DNA of 33,052 bases. Origin: an uncultured Caryophanales bacterium (lineage in GTDB: Bacteria > Bacillota_I > Bacilli_A > RF39 > UBA660). The notes under the pieces were generated by a model. The model saw nothing but the letters and a program-made list of their open reading frames with translations, was not told the origin of the DNA and did not search any database. Each line of letters begins with the position of its first letter. Positions within the stretch are counted from its first letter, which is position 1. Position numbers and translations under genes: made by a program. Shown here one piece after another: positions 2,542-28,845 of the stretch. Where the stretch lies: the NCBI GenBank assembly GCA_948433085.1, contig CAOJDP010000011.1, positions 1 through 33,052 of the forward strand. The letters are read 5' to 3'.

Positions 2542-3783
2542 TCACATTACTGCATTATATTCGTACATTCCCATATAATATTTCTTTTTACCTTTACGTA
2601 TTAAAATTATCTTACCTTCTAATGCAAGGTCCTTTGTAACAACCAAACTTTCATCCGTTATCTTTTCCCCATTTATAGAAATAGAACCTGCTTGTATCAA
2701 TTCTCTAGCCTCTCTTTTACTAGTAGCTATCTCATTTTGAACTAAAAAGTCAACAAGTATTAAATCTTCTTTTATTTCAAAATGTGGTACATCCTTAAAT
2801 GCTTGTTCCATTTCTAGAACAGAAAGATTTTTCACATTACCACTAAATAATGCTTCACTAATTTGTACCGCCTTTTTATATTCCTCTTTTCCATGCAGAA
2901 ATGTAATAATTTCTTCTGCAAGTGCCTTTTGGGCAAGCCTCAATTCTGGTTTCAACTTATGGTCAGCTTCTATTTGTTCAATCTCTTCACATGTTAGGAA
3001 TGTTAATTTCTTTAAGTAATCAATTACACAATGATCGTCGGTATTAATGAGATATTGGTATAGTTCATAACTAGATGTTTTATTTTTATCAAGCCATAAT
3101 GCATTTCCTTCTGTTTTTCCAAATTTGACACCATTTGCATCTAAGACAAGTGGCATTGTCATACCAAATAATTCCACATTGTTTTTTTTACGCGCAAGTT
3201 CTATTCCAGTTGTGATATTGCCCCATTGATCTGATCCTGCTATTTGTAAGGTGACCCCTTTTGTTTCATTTAAATGAACAAAATCCATTCCTTGTAATAA
3301 AGTATAAGCAAATTCACAAAACGTAATTCCTGATTCTAATCTTCTGCTAATAATATCTTTATCTAACATATAATTGACGTTGATATACTTTCCATAGTCT
3401 CTTAAAAAATCTAAAATTGTGATATCTTTTGTCCAATCATAGTTGTTCACCACTTCAAATCCAAATATTTTTTTGGCTTGCCATGTAAGTCCTTCTACAT
3501 TCTTCAAAACTTCTTCTTTTGTAATCATCTGACGTTCTTTTGAGGGTTTTGGATCCCCAATTAATCCTGTTGCTCCACCTATTAATAAAATAGGGTTATG
3601 ACCATGTTTTGCTAGTCTGGTTGCAATTAAAAACGATGAAAAGTGCCCAATATGCATAGAATCTGCTGTTGGGTCTGTTCCTATATAAAATGTTAACTTT
3701 TCTTCATTTAATTTTTTTTCTAATTCAGGTGAACTAATATCTTTAATGAGTCCTCTCCATTTTAATTCTTCAAATAATTTCAT
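2542..3783 (-). CDS. tyrS: Tyrosyl-tRNA synthetase
   Basis: Class I aminoacyl-tRNA synthetase that attaches tyrosine to tRNA-Tyr in the cytoplasm. Of 413 residues, the Rossmann catalytic domain carries the HIGH motif at residues 44-47 (MHIGHF) and the KMSKS-equivalent KFGKT near residue 223. The binding motif GSDQWGN lies between them. The C-terminus is an S4 RNA-binding domain (about residues 345-410). The length is standard for TyrS. The ATG follows a GGGAG ribosome binding site and begins two bases after the deoC-like stop, so the two genes are co-transcribed and probably translationally coupled. Expression should respond to uncharged tRNA-Tyr through the T-box at 4392-4613. The gene ends with TGA. 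Confidence 0.97.
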   Translation of the reverse strand: MKLFEELKWRGLIKDISSPELEKKLNEEKLTFYIGTDPTADSMHIGHFSSFLIATRLAKHGHNPILLIGGATGLIGDPKPSKERQMITKEEVLKNVEGLTWQAKKIFGFEVVNNYDWTKDITILDFLRDYGKYINVNYMLDKDIISRRLESGITFCEFAYTLLQGMDFVHLNETKGVTLQIAGSDQWGNITTGIELARKKNNVELFGMTMPLVLDANGVKFGKTEGNALWLDKNKTSSYELYQYLINTDDHCVIDYLKKLTFLTCEEIEQIEADHKLKPELRLAQKALAEEIITFLHGKEEYKKAVQISEALFSGNVKNLSVLEMEQAFKDVPHFEIKEDLILVDFLVQNEIATSKREARELIQAGSISINGEKITDESLVVTKDLALEGKIILIRKGKKKYYMGMYEYNAVM

Positions 3784-3785
3784 AT

Positions 3786-4391
3786 TTAAACTCCCTTCAT
3801 AAATGGATTTCCATTTTCTGTTCCAATTCTACTTATACCTTTTTCAATGATAGGTAAAATATCTTTTGTATTTTCATTTATTTTAATTTCTAAAACTTCT
3901 CCTTTATGTTCTAAAATTGTATCTAGTTTATCTAAACTTGTTACCTCTATATAATGTATGAATGTTTCATTACAAATGCGAACAATTTGAATCAGTTCTT
4001 CTTCTGTTAATTTTGTTGTATCTACAATTAGTTTAAATACTTTTCCATCAATGGAATCTCTTACTTCTTCTAATTCTTCTTGCAAATAATCCCATTCTTC
4101 ATTTTTTACAGCTGCAATATTCAGATACATCCCAACTTCTGTTGCACCATTTTGGACAGCTTCAATTGCTTCATAGGCTTTTACAGATGTAGTTTGATAT
4201 CCCGCTTTATCTCCTATTACAGTAGCAATCTCAACTGGAGTTTCTTTCAATAATGCGCTAGTGAGTGTTACATAATAAGGAGGAACACAGACTGCGGCAT
4301 AATGGTTTTTCGCAGCTTCATCGCATAAAGTTTCAATATCACGCATGGTTGCGTCTATGTTTAAGTTCGTTTTCTCTAAATATTGGTTCAT
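3786..4391 (-). CDS. DeoC-like protein lacking the aldolase active site
   Basis: The sequence aligns along most of its 201 residues with deoxyribose-phosphate aldolase (DeoC), a TIM-barrel enzyme that cleaves 2-deoxyribose-5-phosphate. It retains CVPPYYV (family CVNPxYV), TVIG, the NGATEVG strand, LIVDTT and ISRIGTENG. The catalytic residues do not survive. The EVDMVIN aspartate is Gly87, and the Schiff-base lysine of FIKTSTGF falls in FIHYIEVTS (Glu149 by my alignment), with the following phosphate-binding loop shortened. Lys170, the second active-site lysine, remains. I infer a non-aldolase pseudoenzyme. The true start is ATG 4391, behind the ribosome binding site GAGAGGATG; the upstream in-frame extension to 4454 is T-box leader. 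It sits directly between a tyrosine T-box and tyrS, which suggests a role linked to tyrosine supply. That role is unknown. Confidence 0.85.
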   Translation of the reverse strand: MNQYLEKTNLNIDATMRDIETLCDEAAKNHYAAVCVPPYYVTLTSALLKETPVEIATVIGDKAGYQTTSVKAYEAIEAVQNGATEVGMYLNIAAVKNEEWDYLQEELEEVRDSIDGKVFKLIVDTTKLTEEELIQIVRICNETFIHYIEVTSLDKLDTILEHKGEVLEIKINENTKDILPIIEKGISRIGTENGNPFMKGV

Positions 4392-4613
4392 AAAATCATC
4401 CTCTCTAATAAAAAAGACATTACAGATATAAGGACGGATATTCCGCGGTACCACCTTATTTCATAAATGACTTATGCTCTTTTTCTTTTAACGCAAGAAT
4501 ACGGTTTCATTCAAAATATGTATTTCTTTATAAAACTTTGATTCATTTACACCTACCATGAACTCTCTTATTACTCATTTTATAAATACTTATTATTTTT
4601 CAACATGAATTAT
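4392..4613 (-). ncRNA. Tyrosine T-box leader
   Basis: A cis-acting RNA that senses uncharged tRNA-Tyr. Visible parts in 5'-3' order on the minus strand: a lower Stem I AAAAT/ATTTT; the AGTA loop-E strand; AGAGAG (4563-4568); a distal stem TTCAT/ATGAA with the GGTAGGTG loop (4542-4562); and a specifier loop containing the Tyr codon TAC (4520-4522). The antiterminator is ATAAGG (4454-4459), bulge TGGTACC (4447-4453), a 5-bp stem GCGGA/TCCGT, then CCTTAT (4428-4433). TGGT in the bulge suits a tRNA with discriminator base A, as tRNA-Tyr has. No stable terminator hairpin is seen before the T run (4410-4415). The strand ATCCGTCCTT can pair with the ribosome binding site at 4397-4405. Confidence 0.92.
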
Positions 4614-5146: not shown

Positions 5147-5971
5147 TTATCCTTTCAAGGTCCCAATCTTTTTTACATTTCCATTTTCTGTAATGTGCAC
5201 ATTATATTTTTCAAATTCTATTCCTTGATTTAAAGGATAGTGATTCATATGAAAATATCCCCATTTTTGTTGTTCCAATAAAAATTGTACAAGTTCTGAA
5301 CTGATATTTTCTCTCCCGAATCTATGCATCATGTCATTTACTATCGTATCTGTTATATCACATATACTTCTATTATTCAGACTTTGATTTTCATAAAATG
5401 ATTTTAAGAAAAAATTTAAATATTGTTGATTGAATTGGATAAATCGAAAATAGGTTTGTAAAAAATCTGGTAATAGATAAATTGGATCTTGAATTCCACT
5501 TTTTTCTAATAATTCTAATTCAATTCCTAATGTTTCTAAAACTTCTTTTCCAACTACTTTTCTTTTCCAACAAATAGATTTTTGATTTTGATTTTTTAAA
5601 TAATATTTAATAAATTTTTGGCTATCCATGCTAATTTGTCTATCTTTTTCAACAACTCTTATTTTTTGTTTCTCTAAATTGATACAAGAATAATTAAAAC
5701 AAAAACTATATAAAAACACTCTATCTTTTGCTCGATGTTTTGGAAAATTTTCATAATTAATATCGTTTAAATACAATTTTTTATATTTTGTACTACTATT
5801 ATCATCATATAAACTAGAACTAGGTAAAATTATTTCCGGATATTCTTGCATTAAATATTGATATACTTTAAAAAAACGTTCACTTAAAAAAACATATTTA
5901 AAATTATCTTCAATTTTTTTTACATATAAGAAAAAATCCCTTAACTCTTCCATCATCTTATTCTCTGTCAT
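5147..5971 (-). CDS. Hypothetical protein between infB and rbfA
   Basis: I do not recognise this 274-residue protein. It has no signal peptide, membrane helix or obvious catalytic motif. It is rich in Tyr, Phe, Asn and Lys, with long helical stretches and the short motif LLPDFLQTYFRFIQF around the middle, and it looks cytoplasmic. Start: TTG at 6013 also opens the frame, but ATG 5971 is preceded at good spacing by AGGG and is preferred. It lies 53 bases after infB and 20 before rbfA, on the same strand, so it is in the ribosome-biogenesis operon. In Bacillus the infB-rbfA interval holds only the small gene ylxP, to which this bears no resemblance that I can see. A role in translation is possible by context only. 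Confidence 0.8.
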   Translation of the reverse strand: MTENKMMEELRDFFLYVKKIEDNFKYVFLSERFFKVYQYLMQEYPEIILPSSSLYDDNSSTKYKKLYLNDINYENFPKHRAKDRVFLYSFCFNYSCINLEKQKIRVVEKDRQISMDSQKFIKYYLKNQNQKSICWKRKVVGKEVLETLGIELELLEKSGIQDPIYLLPDFLQTYFRFIQFNQQYLNFFLKSFYENQSLNNRSICDITDTIVNDMMHRFGRENISSELVQFLLEQQKWGYFHMNHYPLNQGIEFEKYNVHITENGNVKKIGTLKG

Positions 5972-6024
5972 AGTTTCCCTCATTTCTATACTACTATAAC
6001 ATATCGAAACCAAAAAAGAAAGAA

Positions 6025-15992: not shown

Positions 15993-18122
15993 CTAGTCAT
16001 CATCGGAAAAAAAGTCATCAAAGAATTGATCGTCTGTAATTTCTTTTGTATTTATCTCTTTTGGGTTTGCAACAACTTTTGCATGTGACTCTGTTTGTGA
16101 TGTTTTTTGTTTTTTCTCTTGTTCTTCTTTTTCTTTTTTCTCTTCTTCTTCTAATTCAGCAATCTTTGCATCTATCTTTTTTACTAGTTCGTCTAAATTA
16201 AAAGGATTTTTCTCATTTGGTATACTATTTGGCATAGGAGGCATTCCGTTCATGTTAGGCATAGGAGGAAGACTATTCATATTGGGCATACTAGGAACTG
16301 GAGGAACACCAGGAAGGCCCATACCTGGTATTCCAGGAAGTGGTGGCATACCTGGAATATTCATATTGGGCATACCCTTTCCATTTAACATATCATTAAT
16401 TTTCTTTTGTCTTTTTTCATCGACAATTGCTTTTAAATCAAACATTTTTACTTCTTGTTTTTCTCTTTGTGGATAATCAGATTTTTCATATTCACGCCCC
16501 CAAAGACCTTCTTGTACCATTTTGTAATTTGGCGTAAGAACGGTTTTAAATGGCATGCATCTCGTTCTTAAAACAATCATGGATCCAAACTTCATTCGTT
16601 GTAAATCACTTACTGTAACCAGTGGTGTACTTGCAGTTTTATCATCTTTCTTAGACTTAACTTCTCCACACATTTTACTAATTTCTTCTAAGGCCGCAAG
16701 TTCACTACTAATTAAATAAATAATATTTCCACAGTTTCCTTTAATCGTCTCTCCATTTTCTTTTCCATATACTTGATTCAATTGTGAAAAGTTTTGAATG
16801 ATAAATGTAAATCGAATAGAACGACTACGTGCAGCTGTAACCATAGTAGTTACATCTTTTAACGGTGGCATATTCGCAAATTCATCTAATATAAAATTAG
16901 TTCGATAAGGGAGTTTTCCACCTGTTTCTTGTGCAATACGAATTAGTGTTTCATAACATTGTTTTAAGAAAATGGTAACCAATGAATGATATGTTTTCTT
17001 TTCATCTTGAATAACAATAAAAACTGCTGTTTTTTTTCGTCCAATTTCTTCCATATCAAAGTCACTACGCGCTAACATTTCAGACAAATTTTCTCTAGAT
17101 GAAAATAATTTTATTTTTTGTTTGAATACAGATAAAATACTTCCTTTGGTATCAGAGGGTGCGAGTAATGTACTTGCTACATTTATATAAGCGGAAGAAC
17201 TTTGACTTTTATCACTAAAGTATTCCTTCATATATGTGGTTCCACCTATTTTTTCTTCTCCCACTGTTGTCATTAAGTTAATACTATTCAAATTAATTTT
17301 ATCTTCTGTTGTATCATCAAATAATGCTAATGCGAGTCCTGCAAAATAATCTGCTGATGTATTTTCCCAAAAAGGGTCATTATTTTTAGAAGATTCATCA
17401 TAAAGAATATTTTTGGCTAAGTCGTCCAATAATTCATTGGCTTTATCAGAATCTCCACTTTTATATAATGTATAAGGTAATGTAAGTGGATTCCAACAAT
17501 TTCCTTTTTGTGGTTCACGGAAGTTTAAAAGGACAATATTATAACCTCTTTCACGTAATTCATTGGCATTGTTCTCATAGATTTCACCTTTAGGGTCGGT
17601 GATAATCATAGATTCCCCTTTTTTGGCTAAAATTTTTACCATTGGTTGTACAAGCATTTCTGTTTTACCAGATCCTGTACTACCAATTACTAAGTTATGG
17701 TATTCGCCGTTATCAACCCAAATATTATGACCATCATTCATCAAAGGAATTCCTGCGACATCACTATTCTCTGCACTTGGGTGCACTAAGTTTAATTGTT
17801 TTTGCATTTCCTTATCTTTAGACCATCTAGAATAACCCTTATCTTTTTTAGCCGATGTAGAAATACCAAATCCTTTTTCTCTTTCAAAAAAATAAGAAGA
17901 AACACCTGTAAGCACTGCAATCATAAATGCAATGAAAAATACCATTGTTGGAGCTAGATACTCTTTTGTAAATGCTGGAAATGGATTTAATCCATGTATA
18001 GTTGACTCATTTAAAAGTGAAACTACATTCAATACTGCAATGGCAATAAAATATAGTAGTGTAATTGTAAAAGCCAAAAATATTAATATATCTTTTGGTT
18101 CTGCTCTAAATTTTAATTTCAT
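15993..18122 (-). CDS. virD4: VirD4/TraG-type T4SS coupling ATPase
   Basis: Hexameric inner-membrane ATPase that brings substrates to a type IV secretion channel. The 709 residues begin with two transmembrane helices (about 13-35 and 58-76). The TraG/VirD4 ATPase domain follows, with Walker A GSTGSGKTE (147-155), IITDPKGEIYE, and Walker B FILDEFANMPPL near 410. Late in the protein comes an unusual tail: about 55 residues of Met/Pro/Gly/Asn repeats (units such as MPNMN and PPMPN, roughly 585-640), a charged Glu/Lys coiled coil, and a final acidic FFDDFFSDDD. The tail could be a substrate or adaptor docking site. No relaxase is encoded nearby, so the cargo may be protein. The ATG has a GGGAGG ribosome binding site; the gene follows the 247-residue protein by 12 bases. 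Confidence 0.95.
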   Translation of the reverse strand: MKLKFRAEPKDILIFLAFTITLLYFIAIAVLNVVSLLNESTIHGLNPFPAFTKEYLAPTMVFFIAFMIAVLTGVSSYFFEREKGFGISTSAKKDKGYSRWSKDKEMQKQLNLVHPSAENSDVAGIPLMNDGHNIWVDNGEYHNLVIGSTGSGKTEMLVQPMVKILAKKGESMIITDPKGEIYENNANELRERGYNIVLLNFREPQKGNCWNPLTLPYTLYKSGDSDKANELLDDLAKNILYDESSKNNDPFWENTSADYFAGLALALFDDTTEDKINLNSINLMTTVGEEKIGGTTYMKEYFSDKSQSSSAYINVASTLLAPSDTKGSILSVFKQKIKLFSSRENLSEMLARSDFDMEEIGRKKTAVFIVIQDEKKTYHSLVTIFLKQCYETLIRIAQETGGKLPYRTNFILDEFANMPPLKDVTTMVTAARSRSIRFTFIIQNFSQLNQVYGKENGETIKGNCGNIIYLISSELAALEEISKMCGEVKSKKDDKTASTPLVTVSDLQRMKFGSMIVLRTRCMPFKTVLTPNYKMVQEGLWGREYEKSDYPQREKQEVKMFDLKAIVDEKRQKKINDMLNGKGMPNMNIPGMPPLPGIPGMGLPGVPPVPSMPNMNSLPPMPNMNGMPPMPNSIPNEKNPFNLDELVKKIDAKIAELEEEEKKEKEEQEKKQKTSQTESHAKVVANPKEINTKEITDDQFFDDFFSDDD

Positions 18123-18134
18123 ACCTTAACCTCC

Positions 18135-18878
18135 CTATTTTAAGATAGATTGATAAATTCCTTCTTGCATTTCTAAGAAATCATAAATGGAACCTAATTG
18201 ATCAAAATATTGACAGCCAATAATCAAATCGACTTGTTGATCTTGATTCCAATCTACTAAATTATTTACGAAAGGAATACAAACATCCATCAAACTACCA
18301 TTATTTACAATATTTTTATATAAAATAAGACCTGATTGTTCGATTATGAAACTAAATACTTGATCGTGGGTTTCTTCTGAAAATGCATTAGAAACAAGAT
18401 AAATTTTTTTTGTTTCCCCTTTATTTTCATAGGTTATTTTACTTAATTCTGAAAAACCATCATATTCTGTAATTCCTTGCTGTGCAAGAAAATTAACCAC
18501 TTCTTGTTCTTCTGTTGCATTTAATTTTTCTTGCGTCATTGTATATACAGGCATATTGTTCTTTTCAGGAAGTCCAAGTATTGTAGGATTGGAAAAGGCG
18601 ACTAACTCTGGATTGTCACTATTCACAATTACATGATCTGTGATTTGTGTTTTATAAGTTCCTATCTTTTTTCCATTTATATAATACTGAAACTTTTTTT
18701 GTGATATGGATGATAAAGATACTTTTTCCATTGTTCCATTTTTATATTCGTAAATATCATTTGTAGATAACACCAAATAATTTTTGATGTGCATACTATT
18801 ATAAATGAAAACTGTCAAAATTACAATTAAAATATAACTAATTAATACAATTATAATCACTTTGTATTTGGTCTCCAT
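18135..18878 (-). CDS. Single-pass extracytoplasmic protein of the T4SS locus
   Basis: Not assigned to a family. The 247 residues start with a short basic segment and one transmembrane helix (about 7-27); the remaining ~220 residues should lie outside the cell. Near the C-terminus DWNQDQQVDLIIG fits the DxNxDxxxD calcium-binding loop of FG-GAP/dockerin-type repeats. Gene position and topology (short inside, one helix, globular outside) resemble VirB8/TcpC-type scaffold proteins, but I see no sequence proof. The ATG has a GGGGTGA ribosome binding site. It lies ten bases after the peptidoglycan hydrolase gene and 12 before virD4. Confidence 0.75.
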   Translation of the reverse strand: METKYKVIIIVLISYILIVILTVFIYNSMHIKNYLVLSTNDIYEYKNGTMEKVSLSSISQKKFQYYINGKKIGTYKTQITDHVIVNSDNPELVAFSNPTILGLPEKNNMPVYTMTQEKLNATEEQEVVNFLAQQGITEYDGFSELSKITYENKGETKKIYLVSNAFSEETHDQVFSFIIEQSGLILYKNIVNNGSLMDVCIPFVNNLVDWNQDQQVDLIIGCQYFDQLGSIYDFLEMQEGIYQSILK

Positions 18879-18888
18879 CTTTTCACCC

Positions 18889-21366
18889 CTAATCTAGTTT
18901 ACGGTAACATCTTAAATCATGAACGCCTGATGCCTGGTAAGTTGGAAACACATTTGGTGCATTAGATGCGCCTGGGTCAATCATATAAATATTATTATTG
19001 GTTACTCCTGTTACTGCGACCCAATGTCCACCACTTTTTACGCTCATGATCACATAACATCCACTACTTAGCAAATCATTAATTATTTCTAGTTTTTGAT
19101 TGGTACTATACCCACTAATTTTACGAGAATACGATTCATCAAATTTGAAGTATGGGGCAATTTGACTCACTGCTCCCCAGTATATATTTCCTCTTGCATC
19201 ATACCCTCCAACTCGGCTCATTGCTTCTGCAAATGTTCCAGGGTTAAAATTGCTTAATTTCGTTTGGGTTTTAGATCTTGCGATTTGAATTGCGACAGAT
19301 GTAGAAGCACATCCGATTTCTCCAACTGTTTTTGGACCAAGTGCAACATTTGACCAGGCAGGATTTCCTTGTTTCCAATGGTTATAATCCCCACCTGTTG
19401 GATCCACAATCGCTGAATCAAATCCCATGGAATTAGAACCAAATTTAGATCCAGTTTCTTTGGCTTCCTTTAATATTCCATCATAAATTTCTATTTTGGT
19501 TAATTCGATTGCATTTGTATTTTCTAACAAATTCATCCGAAATAATTCCAAATAACCACCACTTGTATAATAATTATCCGTTATTATAGGGGTTGTATTT
19601 CCACTACTATAAGATGGTGGTGTTCCATCAAAGACGCCAATATCATATTGCTTCAAATCATAAGTGTTTATTAAATTTATAATTTTAGAAGCATAATCAG
19701 GATCTTCTGCATAACCTGCTGCTTTGATTCTCCGAATTTGCTCTTCAGGTCCTAAATTTTTTTGTACACATTCTAACACACCATGATTTCCATATGTTGG
19801 GGTTGTCCAAAAGTTTCTAGAGTGATCTGCTAAAGAAGCACCTATATCCGTATACGCACGATACCAATAACAACCATCGCTTCCGCACAAACATACACTG
19901 GTACCATCCCAAGCACCGTTTCCATTCGAATCTTTTTTGGTTGTTCTTGGTTGTTTACAAGAGCCCCCTTTTCCTTTTATCCCGAAGTGGTTATGATATA
20001 CGGAAGCTAAAGAACTTTTTCCACTTCCACTTTCCAAAATTCCTTGTGCAATTGTAACAGAAGCATATATTCCAGATGTACTCATATCTTGACTTGCCCA
20101 TTCGCTAATAGAATCAATATATTCTAAAACAGTTTGTGATGGATTTCCATTACTTGTACTTCCCCCACCTTGTTCGTAAGTTCCAGGCGTTAAATAATAA
20201 TTTCCACCACCAATTATATAATTTTTATAGTTTTCTTCACTTACATAAGTACATTTTGAAACTTTTTTAGAAATTGTAATATTCTCGGGCAATTCTGTAT
20301 CTTTTGCTTTACGACAAAATCCTCCATAAGTATTGGCAGATGCACTGACCCATTCTAATCCATATCTAGTACAATTACTTTGAGATAAAGTAGATATCGT
20401 TTTTACAGTTATCTTTCCCTGACTATTCTTTTGTGTGACTTTAATTTGTGAAACAATATCTTCTGCCTGACCAATCATAGCATTTGTTAGTCCTTCTATT
20501 TCTTTCTTAAAACCTTCTAATTTTTCTGTGTATACTTCGCCTTCTAAATGAGATAAATATTCATCATCTCCACGATTATAAGTAAATGTTGCAGTTAACA
20601 TAGGTACATCTAAGGCAATGGAATCTGGAAATCCTACTGCAGTACATCCATTTATTGTATTGGTATAGGAATTATTTCTTTGTACGTTCACGATTTTTTT
20701 ACGAAACATTTTATAAAAATTAGCTGCATCCGAAGTATAGCAGTCAAATATTCCCTTACACCAACCTTCTTGTACTAAATAATCATATAAATCTGTACTA
20801 AAAAATTGGTCTTTAATGTTCTCTAAAATACCAGCATCACTTTCTCCATCTTCTTCGATTTCTCCTGTTGACAGATAATGATTTACTGTACTTCTTTGAT
20901 CTTGTATTCGCTTACTAGAAAGTATGATTATTAATAAAAATAAGACGAATACAAGTAATATACATGCTGCAATCCCCAATTTTAATAGAGGATTTGACGC
21001 TATATTAAAAAAGAACAGCGATTTGGAAAATGGAGTTTGTTCTGACAAATCTCCATTGAATTCTTCTTTGTCATTGTCTTCTACAGTTCCTTCTGATTCT
21101 ATATTAACAGAGTTTATGTCATTAGAGGATGATGCTTCATTTTGAATATTCTCATTTAATTGTTGTTGGATTCCTAAACTAGGTATAATACGATGATTTT
21201 GATTTAATCTTTCTTGTAAATTAGGATCTATATTAGAACGTCCAATTTTTAATTGTTGTTTTTTTTGAAACAACTCTCTATCTAAATTTGCTAAATTTGC
21301 ATTGCTTGAATTAGAAGATGGTATCTGGCCATCTTTATTTTTTGTATTCTGATTTTGTTCTTCCAT
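18889..21366 (-). CDS. T4SS-associated dual peptidoglycan hydrolase (glucosaminidase plus C39-like)
   Basis: Likely opens the cell wall for the secretion channel (VirB1 role in Gram-positive T4SS). The 825 residues comprise a Gln/Asn-rich cytoplasmic part (1-125), a transmembrane helix (127-150), a Cys-containing stalk (150-400), and a glucosaminidase/FlgJ-type domain (about 410-570) with AQGILESGSGKS, where Glu445 is the expected catalytic acid, and NHFGIKG. The last domain (about 660-825) is C39-like with Cys686 (GCASTS), His781 (GHWVAV) and Asp797 (MIDPG). The glucosaminidase part includes a Cys-rich insert with DSNGNGAWDG, a calcium-loop-like element. The start is ATG 21366 behind GGGTGGTGG; TTG 21381 is less likely. 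It is co-directional with the virB4 and virD4 genes. Confidence 0.9.
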   Translation of the reverse strand: MEEQNQNTKNKDGQIPSSNSSNANLANLDRELFQKKQQLKIGRSNIDPNLQERLNQNHRIIPSLGIQQQLNENIQNEASSSNDINSVNIESEGTVEDNDKEEFNGDLSEQTPFSKSLFFFNIASNPLLKLGIAACILLVFVLFLLIIILSSKRIQDQRSTVNHYLSTGEIEEDGESDAGILENIKDQFFSTDLYDYLVQEGWCKGIFDCYTSDAANFYKMFRKKIVNVQRNNSYTNTINGCTAVGFPDSIALDVPMLTATFTYNRGDDEYLSHLEGEVYTEKLEGFKKEIEGLTNAMIGQAEDIVSQIKVTQKNSQGKITVKTISTLSQSNCTRYGLEWVSASANTYGGFCRKAKDTELPENITISKKVSKCTYVSEENYKNYIIGGGNYYLTPGTYEQGGGSTSNGNPSQTVLEYIDSISEWASQDMSTSGIYASVTIAQGILESGSGKSSLASVYHNHFGIKGKGGSCKQPRTTKKDSNGNGAWDGTSVCLCGSDGCYWYRAYTDIGASLADHSRNFWTTPTYGNHGVLECVQKNLGPEEQIRRIKAAGYAEDPDYASKIINLINTYDLKQYDIGVFDGTPPSYSSGNTTPIITDNYYTSGGYLELFRMNLLENTNAIELTKIEIYDGILKEAKETGSKFGSNSMGFDSAIVDPTGGDYNHWKQGNPAWSNVALGPKTVGEIGCASTSVAIQIARSKTQTKLSNFNPGTFAEAMSRVGGYDARGNIYWGAVSQIAPYFKFDESYSRKISGYSTNQKLEIINDLLSSGCYVIMSVKSGGHWVAVTGVTNNNIYMIDPGASNAPNVFPTYQASGVHDLRCYRKLD

Positions 21367-21391
21367 GATACCACCACCCAACTGTTATACG

Positions 21392-23176
21392 TTAAAATCC
21401 TCCGCCACTTCCAAATGAATCCAATTCTTCCTCTGTTGCAAGTACACTAATTTGCATTCTTCGACTTCCACATACGAATAGTGCATCACCTTGATTGTAC
21501 CGCTTAATACTTTCTTTTTCGTTATCATTTAAGTCAATCAATTTCGACAAATCTTCTACTGCTTGTTTTTTCAGTCCCATGACTAAGTAGTAAGATGCAT
21601 TATCAAAAATAGCTTTTCCTTGTGTAATAACATTTGAATCACTAAAATCACTTGGTTGTTGTGTTATTATAATTGTTCCTGTGTTATATTTTCTAGAACG
21701 TCTTTGAATTTGCGCTAAGAAATCTGCTCCCAATGTATTATTTCCTGAAAGAAGTACGTGTGCTTCATCTACCATAAGTACTGTATTGGTTCTTTTATCC
21801 AATGTAAGTCCCCATGCATATTTCAATATATTAAAGAAAAGCGCATTTCTAATATTTGTATCTGCATTCATTAATTCACGAATATTGAATACAATAAAAT
21901 TGCTACTAGATTCTATTGTTGTATGTCCATCGAAATAATATTTTAATTCTTTTACAATTGGTCGAATTTTCAATTCTAATCTTTCCATAATATCTTTTTC
22001 ATGTGTAGGCTCTGTCATAGATGAAAGACGACCTTTTATCGTAGCATATACATCTTTGAATGTTGGATAGTCTTCTGGGGTAAGCAAAGAAAAGTCTGTA
22101 TCAAATCCAATTCCAAATCTTCGATAAGTCTCTTGCACAATTTCGCTAAACATATTTAATACGTCTTCTTCTATTTTTGGATCATAATACTTCATAAATG
22201 CTTTCATTGTTTGTAAACTTCTAGTAAGGACTGTATAGCCTATTCCTCCTTCAGAATCATCATCATCCACATCTACAATAACTTCTAGAGGATTGACCAT
22301 TCCATAATCTCCACCTTTACCAAGGTCGATAAAATCTCCTTGATAACGACGGGTCATTTCTTCTAATTCTCCTTCAGGATCTATTATAACCAATTGACAG
22401 TTATTACGTATATGTGTTCTGAGCATAATTTTAGCTGCTGTTGATTTTCCGCTTCCTGATGTTCCTAATATAATCATATTGGCATTATTACGATTATGTT
22501 CTTTTCTGATTTGATACAAAAATTGATTGAATAGAATAACACCACCTGAGAAATCGACTCCTAACAAAGTAGACAACCCTGGGTCTTTAATACTATCAAA
22601 GATAAATGGATACATTGCTGCAATAGTAGGAGCGGGTATTGGGGTCCCAATTCTTGTTTCAATATCTTGTTTTGGAAAAATTGGTAAAATAGATTTCAAA
22701 ACTTTTTCTTGTTCAAAACGTAATGGATAAGCTCGCATCTCTAAAGCTTCTAAATAACTTTTTACTTGTAGTTTCTTTGTTAAAAGTTCTTCTTCATTAT
22801 TTGCTGTAATCATAATATGCATTTGGAAGTCATATATTTTAGATTGTGATGCTGCTAATTGTGTAATAAATTGTTCTAATGATTCATAGTCTTGGCGAAT
22901 TCGTTCTTGAATCGTACGGTCATTTTCGTCTTGATAACGTTGTTTTAAATCTGCAATTTCTTTATTCAACATTTTTCGGATTACACTAAATGGTAATGGG
23001 ATATGTTTAATTACTACTTTAATTCCAGACATACTCGTCAAAGAAGAGAGATATCCTGGTTGTATATATTTAGGGTAAGATACTACGGTCAAAATTGTAG
23101 CATATTTATCGCTAATGATAAAAGAATTGGATTTAAACTCAAGGCCTTTTGGCGCTATTTGACTTTTTATGTCCAT
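21392..23176 (-). CDS. virB4: VirB4 T4SS ATPase, C-terminal portion encoded separately
   Basis: ATPase that energises pilus assembly and substrate transfer. The 594 residues hold the end of the VirB4 N-terminal region (1-200) and the RecA-like motor: Walker A GTSGSGKST (238-246), IIDPEGELEEM, Walker B TVLMVDEAHVLL (465-476), and the arginine/glutamine motif ITQQPSDF (about 504-511). The typical first ~180 residues of VirB4 are on the neighbouring upstream gene, whose last ten bases overlap this ATG in another frame. Full VirB4-type proteins are 600-850 residues, so the two products together make a normal size. Translational coupling is likely; a ribosomal frameshift making one chain is an alternative. 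No VirB11 is present, as is usual in Gram-positive bacteria. Confidence 0.95.
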   Translation of the reverse strand: MDIKSQIAPKGLEFKSNSFIISDKYATILTVVSYPKYIQPGYLSSLTSMSGIKVVIKHIPLPFSVIRKMLNKEIADLKQRYQDENDRTIQERIRQDYESLEQFITQLAASQSKIYDFQMHIMITANNEEELLTKKLQVKSYLEALEMRAYPLRFEQEKVLKSILPIFPKQDIETRIGTPIPAPTIAAMYPFIFDSIKDPGLSTLLGVDFSGGVILFNQFLYQIRKEHNRNNANMIILGTSGSGKSTAAKIMLRTHIRNNCQLVIIDPEGELEEMTRRYQGDFIDLGKGGDYGMVNPLEVIVDVDDDDSEGGIGYTVLTRSLQTMKAFMKYYDPKIEEDVLNMFSEIVQETYRRFGIGFDTDFSLLTPEDYPTFKDVYATIKGRLSSMTEPTHEKDIMERLELKIRPIVKELKYYFDGHTTIESSSNFIVFNIRELMNADTNIRNALFFNILKYAWGLTLDKRTNTVLMVDEAHVLLSGNNTLGADFLAQIQRRSRKYNTGTIIITQQPSDFSDSNVITQGKAIFDNASYYLVMGLKKQAVEDLSKLIDLNDNEKESIKRYNQGDALFVCGSRRMQISVLATEEELDSFGSGGGF

Positions 23177-23721
23177 TGTGACACCACCGTTCCAAATGTA
23201 GTTGTTTGTCCACCATTTAAGAAATTATCCAAGATTACTCTTAAATCATCATTGGATACTTGTCTTGAATTTAACCCTGAATTTGCAAATGCATTGATTA
23301 AACTACGAATTCTTTTCGCAATTATATCATTATTTTTTTCTTTAAATAACAAGAAATATTCTGTGTCTACTATATTATTACTCATGAATAAGTTTGCTTT
23401 ATTAATATCCTCCATAATGAGTTTTCTTTTGACTTGGTCATTGACTGAATTAAATAATAATTGCAACTGAGATAAGTATACGTTAATATCTACTGGTCGA
23501 TCTGCGGCTATAATCCAGAATTCATAGTCAATCAAATTGTATACGTTTTTTAGATTATTTATTATCGCATTTTGTGTATCATAATCTGCAATAAAAATGT
23601 TACGTGGCATAATTTTAATTCCACTTACTTTTTCATTGTTATCCAAAATAATCATTCCATTTGTAATACTTTTTATGGGAACAAATTGTTCTGTATACCT
23701 ACTTTTCTTTTTCTTGCTCAT
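23167..23721 (-). CDS. VirB4 N-terminal domain as a separate protein
   Basis: The 184 residues have the look of the amino-terminal, non-ATPase part of VirB4/TraC-type proteins: a basic start (MSKKKKSRYTEQFVPIKSI), then GMIILDNNEKVSGIKI, and a helical domain with AADRPVDINVY. No transmembrane helix and no P-loop. The start ATG 23721 lies 23 bases inside the upstream VirB3-like gene, and its stop overlaps the start of the ATPase gene. All three are therefore tightly coupled. It is probably a subunit that associates with the ATPase. The VirB4 assignment rests on context and size as well as weak sequence resemblance. Confidence 0.78.
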   Translation of the reverse strand: MSKKKKSRYTEQFVPIKSITNGMIILDNNEKVSGIKIMPRNIFIADYDTQNAIINNLKNVYNLIDYEFWIIAADRPVDINVYLSQLQLLFNSVNDQVKRKLIMEDINKANLFMSNNIVDTEYFLLFKEKNNDIIAKRIRSLINAFANSGLNSRQVSNDDLRVILDNFLNGGQTTTFGTVVSQWT

Positions 23722-24013
23722 CTACTGCACACCAACCTTTCCACACGAATTTTTGCCGTGTTGTGTAAAAGTTCCAAACCCCTATAATAACTGTCAGCAC
23801 GTTGTGGTAATATGGCACTGGGAAAACCAAGAAACCTGTAATTACCGCAGGTGCGATTGTAATAAATGCCATTGTTGTATTTGCAAGTGGAAGAATCATC
23901 ATCAATAATAATGTGGTTCCTACTCCACTTCCAAATAGAATTAGATCAAATGGATTAAATAATCCAAAGATTAGTAACGATTTTTTTGAATTCGCTGGTA
24001 TCAAAAAATTCAT
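23699..24013 (-). CDS. VirB3/PrgI-like small membrane protein
   Basis: A 104-residue protein with two adjoining hydrophobic segments (about 25-50 and 52-82) and a cytoplasmic C-terminus containing FYTTRQKFVWKGW. The two helices and the terminal aromatic-basic WKGW motif match the PrgI family, the Gram-positive counterpart of VirB3, which sits in the membrane next to VirB4. Its position immediately before virB4 supports this. The ATG has an AAGGGGATG ribosome binding site; the gene follows the VirB6-like gene by 14 bases and overlaps the next one by 23. Confidence 0.85.
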   Translation of the reverse strand: MNFLIPANSKKSLLIFGLFNPFDLILFGSGVGTTLLLMMILPLANTTMAFITIAPAVITGFLVFPVPYYHNVLTVIIGVWNFYTTRQKFVWKGWCAVDEQEKEK

Positions 24014-24027
24014 CTATTCATCCCCTT

Positions 24028-25950
24028 TTATTTTCCTTGTTTTGCTTTTGTATCTTCAGTTGAAAGTGCTTTTTGTTGTTTCATGAGACCAAAAATCTGT
24101 TTATCCAGTGCATTTCGTTGTGCTTGCAAGTCAACGTATTTCATAGCAGCATCTAAATTTCTACTAGTTACAGCAGTTCCTAAATCTCCTGTGTGAAGTA
24201 AATTTTCAAATTCAGTACGATCCCACTCTGTTTTTCCCTTGATCGCAAGCTTGTTGCCTTTTTCATCAGCTAAACTATAAGTTCCTTTTTTATTATCATA
24301 GCTAACACTTGATAACTTGTCCATATTGGTAGCATCAATTGAACTCATATAGGTTTGTTGATTATGTGATATATTCGTTTGACTTGCTTGCAATCTTGAA
24401 ATACGACTTTCAATTTGCTCACTTCGTTTTTTAGCTGTTGTTTTAATTCCTGCTACAGCTCTTGCCTTATCTGTCATTCTAATAGAGAATCCATAACCCA
24501 TATCTTGACGTTTATCTCTTAAATCTCGATTATCGACTGATTGTTTTAATCCAGGCATAACGCCTTTTTTTAAGGAATCATTTTTAAAGGCGCCATATCC
24601 CCCATGTAAAGCGGAGCTTACACCTCCACCGATAATTCCTCCTGCTTTTCCTAGACCTCTAGCAAATCCTTTAAGGCCTTTAGAATCTCCAGCCAAGGAT
24701 TTTTTTAATCCAGTTTTCCATCCATCACTTCTCACACTACTCAATACATTACTACCAAGTGCAGCCATATTTACTGCAGATCCTAATGCAAATCCTGCAC
24801 CTACAGCGGCTGTTCCTTTTAAGGCACCTGTAACTGCTTTTCCTCCTAATGCATTATCTCTAATTTTTTTCATCGGATTCAATGTCAATCCACCATCTAA
24901 TTTGATTCCTAATAAATCACCCAATAAGCTTGGAAATTTTTTAGCAAATATTAAAGCACCAATTAATATAAATAACATAACCCAAATTTTATATTCTTGT
25001 ACGTTTGCAAATATATCTTCATTCGATAGCAATTTAATAATGTATACTGCAAAGAATAATGCAGCCAAACGTATAAATAAATCTGCCCATGTTTTAAAAA
25101 CTTCTTTTAACCATTTTTTAAACATCCCATCTTTTCCGGATTTTGGATCCACGTAAGACATAATAGGGATTGGAGCAATCAGTTGTAAAAAGCCCAATTT
25201 AATGCTGCGTACTGCAACATCAAAACAAAAGGATACTAATATAAGTGTTACCACAATACCTACTAATGATGAAATAAAGAAACGATAGTCTACCACATAT
25301 AAATCATTTTCTCCACGTGGAGCATAATTTACAATTGTAGAAGTTAAATATTGGGAAGCCGTTCCTTTATTCAGTGAGCCTGCTATTCCAATAGAACAAT
25401 AATCCAATAAATCACCTGACTGTATTTCTCTTGCATGTTCTACTTGTAAAAAAGGTTTTAAAACCAAAATGGAAATATAATCACCATCTGTTTCTGCATA
25501 TGATAATTCTGTACATTCCTCTGCAATTTTATATTCACGCCCCCCTAAAGCGCGATCTTCTGTACCCAGAATAAAGTTAGAAATTACATGATCTGTTAAG
25601 AGTGCATCTTGTGCTTCATATAATTTTCCAAATGCTGTTGGGGTAATAATAATAAATACTAATACCATTATTATATTCACGATTAATTTTTGAGCACCTT
25701 TTGATTTATCTGTCAAAGCATCTGGATCTACTAAGTAGGTAATAAATGAAAAAGTCAATTTAAATAGCATAAATATACCTAATAATGTATATATTTTTTT
25801 TGCCATTTCGCCTATACTATCTGGTCCAAAAATATTAACTTGAGTAATTTGAAAGAGGATCTCATATACTATCGCCATTAATGTAAAAATTGTTCTATCT
25901 ATTGTTGCAAAAACTCCACGAACTCCATTATTTATCCAAGATTCAACCAT
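24028..25950 (-). CDS. VirB6/TrbL-like polytopic T4SS channel protein
   Basis: The 640 residues comprise an N-terminal membrane half and a soluble C-terminal half. Hydrophobic helices lie at about residues 16-36, 50-72, 88-110, 226-268 (two), 290-308 and 322-345, with an outside loop at 111-220. The arrangement and the motif FGKLY...GIVVTLILVSFCFDVAVRSI resemble VirB6/TrbL/TcpH-type core proteins that form part of the translocation channel. The C-terminal ~290 residues are Gly/Ala/Lys-rich, then helical and coiled-coil-like (ISRLQASQTNISHNQQ), presumably cytoplasmic and interacting with VirB4 or VirD4. The ATG has an AAAGGAG ribosome binding site. It is co-transcribed between the VirB2-like and VirB3-like genes. 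Confidence 0.85.
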   Translation of the reverse strand: MVESWINNGVRGVFATIDRTIFTLMAIVYEILFQITQVNIFGPDSIGEMAKKIYTLLGIFMLFKLTFSFITYLVDPDALTDKSKGAQKLIVNIIMVLVFIIITPTAFGKLYEAQDALLTDHVISNFILGTEDRALGGREYKIAEECTELSYAETDGDYISILVLKPFLQVEHAREIQSGDLLDYCSIGIAGSLNKGTASQYLTSTIVNYAPRGENDLYVVDYRFFISSLVGIVVTLILVSFCFDVAVRSIKLGFLQLIAPIPIMSYVDPKSGKDGMFKKWLKEVFKTWADLFIRLAALFFAVYIIKLLSNEDIFANVQEYKIWVMLFILIGALIFAKKFPSLLGDLLGIKLDGGLTLNPMKKIRDNALGGKAVTGALKGTAAVGAGFALGSAVNMAALGSNVLSSVRSDGWKTGLKKSLAGDSKGLKGFARGLGKAGGIIGGGVSSALHGGYGAFKNDSLKKGVMPGLKQSVDNRDLRDKRQDMGYGFSIRMTDKARAVAGIKTTAKKRSEQIESRISRLQASQTNISHNQQTYMSSIDATNMDKLSSVSYDNKKGTYSLADEKGNKLAIKGKTEWDRTEFENLLHTGDLGTAVTSRNLDAAMKYVDLQAQRNALDKQIFGLMKQQKALSTEDTKAKQGK

Positions 25951-25965
25951 TCAAAATCACTCCTT

Positions 25966-26868
25966 TCAAAAAATGGAACAAAATAATTCATTACTATTTA
26001 CTCCATACGGTTCTAAAGCACCACTTAAATCGATTATGAATGTAACTAGCATTGGTAAAAATATAATGACTGCACCAATAATCAATCTTTTCACAAATTT
26101 TGTAGTTGCAGCTTTTAAACTTTTATCCTCACCATTCAATACAACACTGGTAAAATCTATAGACGTCATAATCACTATAATCACTGGGATTGAAATTTGT
26201 ATTAAGTCTACAATCCATTTTATGATTGGTGTGACTTTTTTGCCTAAAATTGTACATGCTTTTTTATCATAAACTGTTTGTATGATAGGTGGCTTCACAA
26301 ATCCATTATAATATGCAAATATAACATCTTCAACTGGATATCCATGATACAATTTATCAATTACATTATGTAAGCGTTCAGATTCTGTTTCAAAATAAGT
26401 TTTTGCATCTTCAATCCTTTTTTTTATACTTTTAAATTCTGAATCATTACTCGCAATTTCATTTTTATCTACCATTTCTTGAAGTCTTATTTCAAATGAC
26501 TCCAAATTTTTTAATTGATTTTTCACATATGGTACACATGTATTGATTACATTATCCAAAACGGATTCCCTAGAAATCTTTGATACTATATCTCGTATTG
26601 ATGCAACATTCTGTATTCCATTTATTATAGCCCCTAGAAACTTATTCTCCAATATTCCAGCACCTAAACTTTCATCAAAGCTACAACTATAATCTGCCAT
26701 ACTGTCTATTTGAACATGCATACGTTCAATCCAAATTGGAGCACCAGGTAGAAATGCACCTGTACCTGGTTGTAGACCGTTCTCTGCCATAATTACTCTT
26801 ATATCACATATAAAAAGAATCGCAATTATACTTGTTATTACAAATAAATTTTTTACTTTTCTTCGCAT
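25966..26868 (-). CDS. Secreted protein with a C-terminal VirB2-like two-helix hairpin
   Basis: The 300 residues start with a signal peptide (MRRKVKN, hydrophobic core to about residue 28, likely cleavage near ALA-like VIMA/EN). An ectodomain of ~180 residues follows, with four cysteines and a helical stretch (115-170). The C-terminus is a pair of transmembrane helices (214-240, 259-281) joined by a short charged loop. That hairpin aligns with the short protein at 26960-27310: P, VI, D, the charged K-x-x-K-A loop and the F-x-KR motif recur in the same spacing. It may be an extended pilin-like or pilus-tip subunit. The start is ATG 26868 behind GGGTGA; the extension to 26898 is less likely. 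It has its own extended -10 promoter. Confidence 0.8.
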   Translation of the reverse strand: MRRKVKNLFVITSIIAILFICDIRVIMAENGLQPGTGAFLPGAPIWIERMHVQIDSMADYSCSFDESLGAGILENKFLGAIINGIQNVASIRDIVSKISRESVLDNVINTCVPYVKNQLKNLESFEIRLQEMVDKNEIASNDSEFKSIKKRIEDAKTYFETESERLHNVIDKLYHGYPVEDVIFAYYNGFVKPPIIQTVYDKKACTILGKKVTPIIKWIVDLIQISIPVIIVIMTSIDFTSVVLNGEDKSLKAATTKFVKRLIIGAVIIFLPMLVTFIIDLSGALEPYGVNSNELFCSIF

Positions 26869-26900
26869 AAAATCACCCATAATTAATTTTTTACACATTT

Positions 26901-26909
26901 ATTATAGCA
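26901..26909 (-). promoter_or_regulatory. Internal promoter (extended -10) before the long VirB2-like gene
   Basis: Minus-strand TGC followed by TATAAT (26901-26906), no good -35. It directly follows the terminator at 26911-26949 and would restart transcription for the channel genes downstream. Confidence 0.6.
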
Positions 26910-26910
26910 T

Positions 26911-26949
26911 AAAAAAAAGCAACACGATATAAAATCTTATCACTTTTGC
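26911..26949 (-). terminator. Intrinsic terminator after the short VirB2-like gene
   Basis: Minus-strand GCAA and GTGATA pair with TATCGT and TTGC (10 bp with two wobbles and a small internal loop), loop AGATTTTA, followed by eight T. It begins about ten bases after the stop of the 116-residue gene. It is probably leaky, as operon genes continue beyond. Confidence 0.7.
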
Positions 26950-26959
26950 ATTTTTAATA

Positions 26960-27310
26960 CTATTCTTCAACGTTTGCTGCTGTACAGTCTCCATTTACAA
27001 AGCAGTTAAAACATCCACTTACTTTATTATCTGTCTCATCTACAAGGGCAATTATCCATTGAACAATCGCAATGACAAAGAAAATCAATATTGCATATAA
27101 TATACGCTTAATGAATTTACCTTGAGCACCTTTCATTTCCTTTTCATCATTGGACATAATAGCTTTACCAAGATCTAGCATTCCAAAGATAACCAATAAA
27201 ATTGGAACAGCAATTTTAATAAGGGTTACTACGAGATGCACAGTACCTGGAATAATACTGTCCATTTGTGGTAAACCTCCACATTGCACCATATCTAATA
27301 CATTTAACAT
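26960..27310 (-). CDS. VirB2/TrbC-like pilin candidate
   Basis: The 116 residues show the two-helix plan of T4SS pilins: TM1 about 24-46 (IKIAVPILLVIFGMLDLGKA), a short polar loop with NDEKEMKGAQGK, TM2 about 67-92, and a Cys-rich C-terminus (Cys100, Cys103, Cys109). An additional Cys10 precedes TM1. No classical cleavable signal peptide is apparent. The gene has consensus promoter elements, a 5'-end hairpin, a strong AGGAGG ribosome binding site and its own terminator. This isolated unit is what one expects for an abundant structural subunit. The C-terminal hairpin of the 300-residue protein next door is paralogous. Confidence 0.82.
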   Translation of the reverse strand: MLNVLDMVQCGGLPQMDSIIPGTVHLVVTLIKIAVPILLVIFGMLDLGKAIMSNDEKEMKGAQGKFIKRILYAILIFFVIAIVQWIIALVDETDNKVSGCFNCFVNGDCTAANVEE

Positions 27311-27328
27311 ATCTAAAACCTCCTAATT

Positions 27329-27351
27329 CCATAAAGCGATTTGCTTTACGG
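27329..27351 (-). other. 5'-terminal mRNA hairpin before the pilin-like gene
   Basis: Minus-strand CCGTAAAGC / GCTTTATGG, a 9-bp stem with one G-T pair and the loop AAATC, located between the promoter and the ribosome binding site. With start of transcription near 27348 most of the stem would form the very 5' end of the message, a position known in other bacteria to protect from RNase degradation. No T run follows, so it is not a terminator. Confidence 0.7.
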
Positions 27352-27353
27352 AT

Positions 27354-27382
27354 ATAATATCTCTTTTTTCTATTATTGTCAA
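27354..27382 (-). promoter_or_regulatory. Strong internal promoter of the pilin-like gene
   Basis: Minus-strand TTGACA (27377-27382), exactly 17 bases, TATTAT (27354-27359). It has the only perfect -35 box I found in the window, and drives the 116-residue VirB2-like gene. Confidence 0.85.
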
Positions 27383-27386
27383 CTTT

Positions 27387-28391
27387 TTATTTACCAAATA
27401 AGCCCAAAATACTATTTTTCTTTTCTTGTTCTTGTGTTTGTTGTTTTTTAAAGCCTAATCGAACGAGTAACAAATTTAATGCATGTATACTTTTTTCACG
27501 CTCGTCCAATGGTGGCATATTATAGTACACTTTTGCACCTGATTCATATTCAAAGTCAAGAACATCTTTAGAATTTAATAAACTTTGATTTAGAATAATT
27601 TTTTTGCCACGCAATTCTTTAAATGCATTGCTATTAATCAGCATCAATTTATTCAATTTGATAATAGATGGCTCCACTAAATAAAGAATCTCGGTACAAA
27701 GTTTTTCTGCTTCTTTACTATCATTTATGTCTACTAAGATTACATTATACCCACTATATTTTGCAATTGCATTTCCAATGTCTGTATTAGGTACAGATAT
27801 TAATTTTTTAGAATTAAAGTATCGGAAATCACTTTTATTTACTTCAAGTGCTACTACAGAATAATTTTTTTCCAATTGTTTTACCATCATATAAATTAAT
27901 GTAGTTGCTCCAGATTGCTTTGTAATATTTTTTACACCTATTATTTTTTGTTGAACAGTTAATTCTACTTCTTCATATTTTTCTGTCACAACATTTTCTA
28001 CTGCATTAGTATCCAATTGATGGATATGTGCAACATCACGATAGGTATTTGGATTGTTATATAAATAAATAATGCCTTCTAAATTTTTACTAAAATTATA
28101 AATCCCCATTGAAATTAATTTTGATAAATAATCATTAGAATTACTTTCTTCAGAATCATCTAATAACAATATGATTTTATCCATATCTAGTGTAATTGAC
28201 AGTCTTTGTAACGTTCTGATATCTTTATGATTCTTAAGTGCTGTAATATCAATAATCATTCTTTGAAAGAAGAAATTTTGAAATTGAGAAATAAGATCAT
28301 CTACATCAAATTCACCTTCCAAAGTTTTTATTACATCAATCTCTAAATTTTGTAATAAATCTTTTTGTTTGTTTGCAATAATTACATTCAT
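27387..28391 (-). CDS. CpaE/TadZ-like ParA-family ATPase with altered P-loop
   Basis: The 334 residues divide into an N-terminal receiver-like domain (about 1-110; hydrophobic strands ending in LLLDD and GIIYLYNN) and a ParA/MinD-like domain (about 145-310), the layout of CpaE/TadZ, which position Tad-pilus machinery at the cell pole. The deviant Walker A reads KNITKQSGATT (154-164). The signature lysine Lys158 is present, but the P-loop lysine before the two threonines is Ala162. A DxxD-like segment VILVDINDSKEAE takes the place of Walker A'. The C-terminus is Lys/Gln-rich and ends LGLFGK. The ATG has a GGGAGG ribosome binding site. It follows the two minor pilin-like genes by 19 bases, with the pilin promoter right after it. 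Confidence 0.78.
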   Translation of the reverse strand: MNVIIANKQKDLLQNLEIDVIKTLEGEFDVDDLISQFQNFFFQRMIIDITALKNHKDIRTLQRLSITLDMDKIILLLDDSEESNSNDYLSKLISMGIYNFSKNLEGIIYLYNNPNTYRDVAHIHQLDTNAVENVVTEKYEEVELTVQQKIIGVKNITKQSGATTLIYMMVKQLEKNYSVVALEVNKSDFRYFNSKKLISVPNTDIGNAIAKYSGYNVILVDINDSKEAEKLCTEILYLVEPSIIKLNKLMLINSNAFKELRGKKIILNQSLLNSKDVLDFEYESGAKVYYNMPPLDEREKSIHALNLLLVRLGFKKQQTQEQEKKNSILGLFGK

Positions 28392-28410
28392 TAGATTGAT
28401 TCCTCCCTTT

Positions 28411-28833
28411 TTATCTTAATATACCCATTATTTTTGTTTCTCCATATACAGGAAGTTCTAACGACTGACCAATAATTGGAAAATCAAAATACATATAAGC
28501 TGCAACGCCATAATAAGTCCCTTTGGTTGTGCTATACTCATAAACACAATAACGATAGGTATTGGTATTTAATGTAAGAGATTCTTTTTCCTTACGCATT
28601 GGACATCCCTTATTTCCCACGTTTACACGATAGCCCATTTCACCCAATGTAGATGCAATTTCATCCACTGTAACTGAATCAAATTTTTCATATTTTTCAA
28701 TGATGTCTACAATTCGGTTTTTTACTTTAAAAGCCTTCGTATAGGTTAATGAGCCTGCGAAAAAAAATATAAATATGATTATAAAAACAATTACAAGATT
28801 TGATATAAAGGCATTTGCTATGGATTCTTTCAT
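28411..28833 (-). CDS. TadE/TadF-like minor pilin candidate B
   Basis: The 140 residues have a short start (MKESIANAFISN), one transmembrane helix (about 13-33) and an ectodomain. The ectodomain is paralogous to the next gene (28846-29292): both show KAFKV after the helix, a CP dipeptide, the Y-x-YC-x-YEY block (YRYCVYEY here) and a terminal LPVYGET. Cys residues in the same two positions suggest a disulfide. Topology and size match TadE/TadF pseudopilins of Tad pili. The sequence itself is too divergent for me to name a family. Gaps of 12 and 19 bases to its neighbours indicate co-transcription. Confidence 0.72.
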   Translation of the reverse strand: MKESIANAFISNLVIVFIIIFIFFFAGSLTYTKAFKVKNRIVDIIEKYEKFDSVTVDEIASTLGEMGYRVNVGNKGCPMRKEKESLTLNTNTYRYCVYEYSTTKGTYYGVAAYMYFDFPIIGQSLELPVYGETKIMGILR

Positions 28834-28845
28834 CTGATCACCATC

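Follow-up and report, generated by a model that had tools for sequence, protein, structure and literature searches.

Deoxyribose-phosphate aldolases (DeoC, or DERA; TIGR00126, PF01791), represented by the structures 3ngj, 3r12 and 5dbu, share a full-length (beta/alpha)8 fold. The DERA residue Lys167 forms a Schiff base and Lys201 lowers the pKa of Lys167 (PMC4725968). T-box-controlled tyrS genes, of which classical B. subtilis tyrS is an example (RF00230), have a UAC specifier and a terminator-like stem with a T-run before the aminoacyl-tRNA synthetase unit. At the locus described here the two meet: a deoC-like gene sits within a Tyr T-box/tyrS operon, differing in this from DeoC/DERA as described, and it is placed as a cargo gene ahead of the synthetase gene, unlike the classical B. 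subtilis unit. No report of a T-box with tyrS and deoC, or of a DERA pseudoenzyme, was found in the open-access literature, and what is new here is a dead DERA that has been maintained in a T-box/tyrS operon and that has parallel cases. Coordinates refer to the window, the whole 33,052-nucleotide stretch that was analysed.

2542–3783, minus strand: tyrS, tyrosyl-tRNA synthetase (TIGR00234, 369.9 bits against a cut-off of 113.8, full length), xenologous relative to the tyrS of the congeners G138 and G194
3786–4391, minus strand: deoC-like coding sequence, 201 aa (ATG at 4391, stop at 3786–3788), with a DERA fold but without the catalytic residues

The DeoC-like protein and its active site

The open reading frame at 3786–4391 encodes a full-length DERA-fold protein, in agreement with the initial annotation, which had recognised the barrel over its whole length. 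Its profile score against TIGR00126 (128.5 bits) is above the equivalog cut-off of 117.3, with the best-scoring stretch confined to residues 2–150. Identity to DERAs is about 30%, and phmmer matched T. maritima DERA (3r12) at E 2e-29. The structure prediction that had been proposed as a check yielded a confident AlphaFold2 barrel (pLDDT 92.2, pTM 0.88), and the closest solved structures found by Foldseek are DERAs (3ngj, TM 0.95, 1.4 Å).

The active site was compared in an alignment of the protein with 38 canonical relatives, with E. coli DERA numbering for reference. The residues compared are 92–100% conserved across the canonical copies. Three codons mark the key positions:

3882–3884, minus strand: Lys170 codon, at the E. 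coli DERA Lys201 position (beta7), retained in 5/5 species of the genus
3945–3947, minus strand: Glu149 codon, at the Schiff-base Lys167 position on beta6; Glu in 5/5 species of the genus, Lys in 38/38 canonical copies
4131–4133, minus strand: Gly87 codon, at the E. coli DERA Asp102 position on beta4; Gly in 5/5 species of the genus, Asp in 38/38 canonical copies

As first read from the letters, the Schiff-base lysine and its partner aspartate are gone; the alignment puts no lysine at the Schiff-base position. The earlier remark that part of the phosphate loop is missing was also accurate: the TSTGFG..G segment and SGG are deleted or substituted, the phosphate-binding residues TGF..G, SGG and Ser238 are lost or deleted, and the beta6-alpha6 loop is shortened relative to DERA. 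The remaining Lys170 to which attention had been drawn does align with E. coli Lys201. Judged from these changes, the protein would no longer be able to cleave deoxyribose-5-phosphate or to hold on to the substrate phosphate. Lys170, Lys120, Lys71, Lys96, Cys35, Thr8 and Asn91 are still present and may leave room for a different chemistry.

A second, active DeoC was sought in the same genome (1.69-Mb assembly, about 91% complete), and no other homologue was detected up to E 10. Catalysis might have been dispensed with because the deoxynucleoside pathway was gone, but this is ruled out for the genus. DeoB, pyrimidine-nucleoside phosphorylase and a PNP are kept in this genome and its congeners, so that the loss of DERA is not simply the loss of a whole pathway. 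Since the pathway's sugar phosphates should then still be made, the same enzymes speak for a neofunctionalised enzyme or ligand binder, in which the old pocket was rebuilt around Glu149, Asp124 and Lys170 to take a different small molecule or carry out a different reaction. Several defective lineages (see below) show the same replacements F61Y, E124D and K149E, which is not expected of random decay, and Lys170 and Lys120 are kept throughout the genus. The pocket as a whole fits this less well: the phosphate-contacting loops are deleted or unconserved even within the genus (the window's beta6-alpha6 loop is the shortened one), position 61 is Asp in the window and Tyr in its congeners, and pocket residues other than Glu149, Asp124 and Lys170 vary among congeners. 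We regard a rebuilt pocket as possible but rather unlikely.

The T-box leader and the position ahead of tyrS

Upstream of the deoC-like gene the following leader elements were located:

4410–4415, minus strand: T-run (U6 in the mRNA) directly 3' of a stem, a terminator-like leader end, from the sequence
4427–4612, minus strand: T-box leader of the tyrosine type (RF00230, cmscan 101.8 bits, E 1.3e-21)
4520–4522, minus strand: specifier codon UAC (Tyr) in the stem I specifier loop, from the Rfam alignment

The prediction of a tyrosine T-box thus agrees with the initial annotation. UAC occurs at the equivalent place in the leaders of relatives, a T-box was found in 30/32 of the relatives' loci scanned, and leader identity is 86–99% inside the genus (89–90% between the window and four congeners). 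Because a stem abuts the T-run in the minimum free energy fold of all 29 leaders that have a T-run, transcription attenuation is the preferred mode in which the leader would work. A translational T-box that sequesters the Shine-Dalgarno sequence was considered since CGUCCUU can pair with that sequence (17/38 folds), but it is disfavoured by these 29 abutting stems. The deoC-like gene and tyrS follow one T-box terminator, and we infer that both would be raised together, with their products, when tRNA-Tyr is uncharged. At the leader ends of the window (4410–4480) and of its relatives, the antiterminator hairpin tops a longer hairpin, in whose lower stem the 3' arm of stem III appears to pair with sequence beside the T-run. 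If so, stem III and the terminator could not form at the same time, an arrangement that seems to depart from the textbook T-box switch and differs from classical B. subtilis tyrS.

In the window, tyrS begins 2 nt past the stop of the deoC-like gene, and across the genus the junction is 1–2 nt or a 4-nt overlap. A deoC homologue is present in 47/193 genomes of the same family; many members are without one, so DERA is dispensable there. Where a homologue occurs, co-occurrence with tyrS, which had been put forward as something to check, is nearly general: 45 of the 46 other genomes examined have a same-strand tyrS downstream of it, mostly within 20 nt or overlapping, with separations of 200–2100 nt in six genomes and a location elsewhere in G057. 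The association is thus found in dozens of genomes and is not confined to a single one. Nor is it class-wide: tyrS did not occur within 1.5 kb of any of the 29 DERAs examined from other families in the class.

Canonical deoC stands directly before tyrS in more than 40 family relatives, that is, in most deoC-bearing members. These canonical proteins (e.g. G111/L049 and G093/L033) have in common with the window's copy the locus, the kind of T-box and the family-specific residues on alpha4-alpha6, but they keep the D, K and K residues and the phosphate loops that it has lost. Since most family copies are canonical, the link with tyrS predates the loss of catalysis. The place before tyrS is inherited; the novelty is that the protein was kept after its active site was lost.

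We also surveyed the slot in 20 sampled family genomes without deoC. In 10 of them a T-box motif lies 56–67 nt ahead of tyrS with nothing between, in five the interval holds a gene, which encodes a HAD hydrolase or a dUTPase_2 in two genomes each and a CYTH protein in the fifth, and the remaining five gave no T-box motif. Among deoC-bearing genomes a HAD gene is often ahead of deoC, and RdgB/Ham1, GNAT and dUTPase_2 also occur. The loci with such genes in the T-box/tyrS interval are:

HAD: L037, L040–L044, L051, L055, L064, L066, L069, L070, L073, L076, L189, L190
dUTPase_2: L066, L072, L185, L188
RdgB/Ham1: L038
CYTH: L179
GNAT: L063

An interval that is either empty or filled with varied, unrelated genes is a cargo position, and among the genes observed there its contents appear to lean towards nucleotide-phosphate enzymes. 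Two further observations concern the deoC genes of the family. The products from L040, L043, L048, L051, L066 and L072 end in a Cys/His-rich tail (L040: CNCNHEKHNCKCNHEHKHEHHECKC) that looks metal-binding. In L073 (G025, 1274–1853) a canonical-type deoC before tyrS contains a stop and a shift of frame, which may mean that decay affects canonical copies too in the family, or that the assembly is in error.

The synthetase gene has a different history from its neighbours. Two tyrS types exist in the genus (window 2542–3783, L032 and L083 versus L081 and L082) between flanking genes that are about 90% identical. The window's tyrS is 91% identical to those of G193 and G195 but only 63–64% identical to those of G138 and G194, whereas rbfA and infB are 90–93% and 90–92% identical, respectively, between the window and the four congeners. 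A single tyrS clade for the genus is rejected (AU test, p 5e-46), whereas the genus is a single clade in the tree of deoC-like proteins (support 100/99), and T-box, deoC-like gene, rbfA and infB are vertically inherited. From these comparisons, the essential synthetase gene was replaced in place in one sub-lineage, leaving the T-box and the deoC-like gene undisturbed.

This replacement bears on the idea that the adjacency is conserved because the protein acts directly on TyrS or tRNA-Tyr, as an accessory subunit or a regulator. The near-constant downstream tyrS, usually a few nucleotides away, and the shared T-box control are what such a role would lead one to look for. A tightly co-evolved TyrS partner is made unlikely, however, by the exchange of tyrS while the T-box and the dead deoC stayed; in addition, tyrS stands without deoC in most family members, and unrelated genes occupy the same slot. 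We consider an accessory or regulatory role very unlikely, and TyrS itself is probably not the binding partner. The initial annotation had taken the position before tyrS as a sign of a new role connected with tyrosine or tRNA. This was not upheld, given that canonical DeoC was already there, that the slot accepts unrelated genes and that tyrS was exchanged beside the dead copy. The tyrosine link is positional and inherited and is not evidence for a tyrosine-related function.

Elsewhere in the window, a 288-aa open reading frame (5147–6013) lies between rbfA and infB, which are adjacent without it in G193; neither Pfam (E 0.1) nor a tblastn search of the loci of relatives produced a match for it. 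A minus-strand gene run at 15993–29292 with coupling-protein-like and VirB4-like ATPases (recognised by eye) suggests an integrated element with apparent conjugation or secretion components.

Selection on the dead copies and their origins

The deoC-like gene is intact in 5/5 species of the genus compared. Selection on the dead copy was estimated from the few congeneric pairs with unsaturated dS. For G138/G194, dN/dS is 0.11 at a dS of 0.21 (about 24 synonymous versus 10 nonsynonymous changes, p 3e-10 against neutrality), and for G193/G195 it is 0.13 at a dS of 0.51 (55 synonymous versus 26 nonsynonymous changes, p 2.5e-19). Such significant values indicate that the dead protein is still selected as a protein, and together with the intact frames in five species they rule out a pseudogene or a sequencing artefact. 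The reading of the gene as a DeoC-like pseudoenzyme at the head of a tyrS unit therefore stands: it is intact, under purifying selection and kept beside tyrS.

An alignment of 49 copies contains 38 with the full D-K-K set and 11 without. Ten of the latter are clear defectives, namely the five species of the window's genus (G000, G138, G193, G194 and G195), G053, the pair G010 and G154, G098 and G087; the eleventh, G107, is borderline, as it retains the Schiff-base lysine but not the full set. Defective copies thus occur in at least four lineages besides the window's genus, and one genus holds both a defective copy (G053) and a canonical one (G186). On the infB tree a single clade of defective hosts is rejected (AU p 1.6e-4), and four to five changes are needed. 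The deoC tree computed without the active-site columns has three origins, and no bootstrap tree has one, but a single clade of defectives is compatible with AU tests on the deoC trees (p 0.71, and p 0.29 with the active-site columns removed). The phylogeny that had been suggested for lysine-less homologues hence places defectives in several lineages while the deoC tree itself accommodates one clade. A single origin is opposed by the hosts' infB tree, and repeated independent loss of the active site is favoured as the probable history; the alternative would be transfer of a dead copy.

Is the gene a slowly decaying relic, dispensable and persisting as a frame only as the first cistron tightly coupled to essential tyrS? 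Most family genomes do without deoC, the junction with tyrS is tight, three of the defective copies have very long branches, and in close congeneric comparisons the deoC-like gene evolves faster than tyrS (dN ratio 2.3 to 8.1). Decay is nevertheless hard to square with dN/dS values like those of canonical congeneric pairs (0.05–0.20), with ten clear defectives that contain no stop or frameshift, and with genomes in which the T-box directly abuts tyrS, so that tyrS can be expressed without the cistron. We judge the relic explanation unlikely.

What the defectives keep was counted in three sets of positions: 28 active-site columns, a list partly hand-picked by motif position; 43 other universal positions; and 24 family-specific positions, from 49 family canonical copies compared with 30 DERAs not adjoining tyrS. 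The ten clear defectives keep 4–18 of the active-site positions, 29–40 of the other universal positions and 15–22 of the family-specific ones; the active-site positions lost are 97–99% conserved in live enzymes. Glu108, Arg111, Asp112, Ile114, Cys140, Thr143 and Lys163 are kept in 11/11 defective copies and lie at the C-terminal ends of alpha4, alpha5 and alpha6 in the AlphaFold2 model. From barrel topology they are predicted to be surface-exposed, and DERA helices 5–7 are opposite the known dimer interface (PMC4725968). This pattern suggests a dedicated interface on alpha4-alpha6. As universal positions outside the active site are kept at a similar rate, the safe claim is that all but the active site is maintained, and retention of the family-specific residues may reflect no more than fold stability or common descent.

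A proposed non-catalytic role

The explanation we lean towards, and give close to an even chance, is that the T-box/tyrS operon maintains a DERA-fold pseudoenzyme whose role is binding and not catalysis. Within the family, canonical deoC would have settled between Tyr T-box and tyrS, and the active site would later have been lost in the ancestor of the window's genus, with the protein retained. Its likeliest mode of action would be to bind a macromolecular partner by way of the family-specific residues at the C-termini of helices alpha4, alpha5 and alpha6, so that the binding face would be the side away from the active site. A bolder, doubtful extension is that DeoC in this family already carried a further, non-catalytic function on its alpha4-alpha6 face before the loss, and that several lineages independently shed the aldolase while keeping that function. 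If true, this would be a recurrent, parallel transition from enzyme to pseudoenzyme at a single place in the operon, under induction by tyrosine starvation.

For the genus, the sole DeoC homologue found in the genome, and in each congener, is without the catalytic residues. It passes the TIGR00126 cut-off but its catalytic residues are gone, so automatic annotation as a deoxyribose-phosphate aldolase is probably wrong and would misstate the metabolism. Across the family, live and dead copies of one gene stand at one operon position, a natural series for asking what role a protein has once its chemistry is gone.
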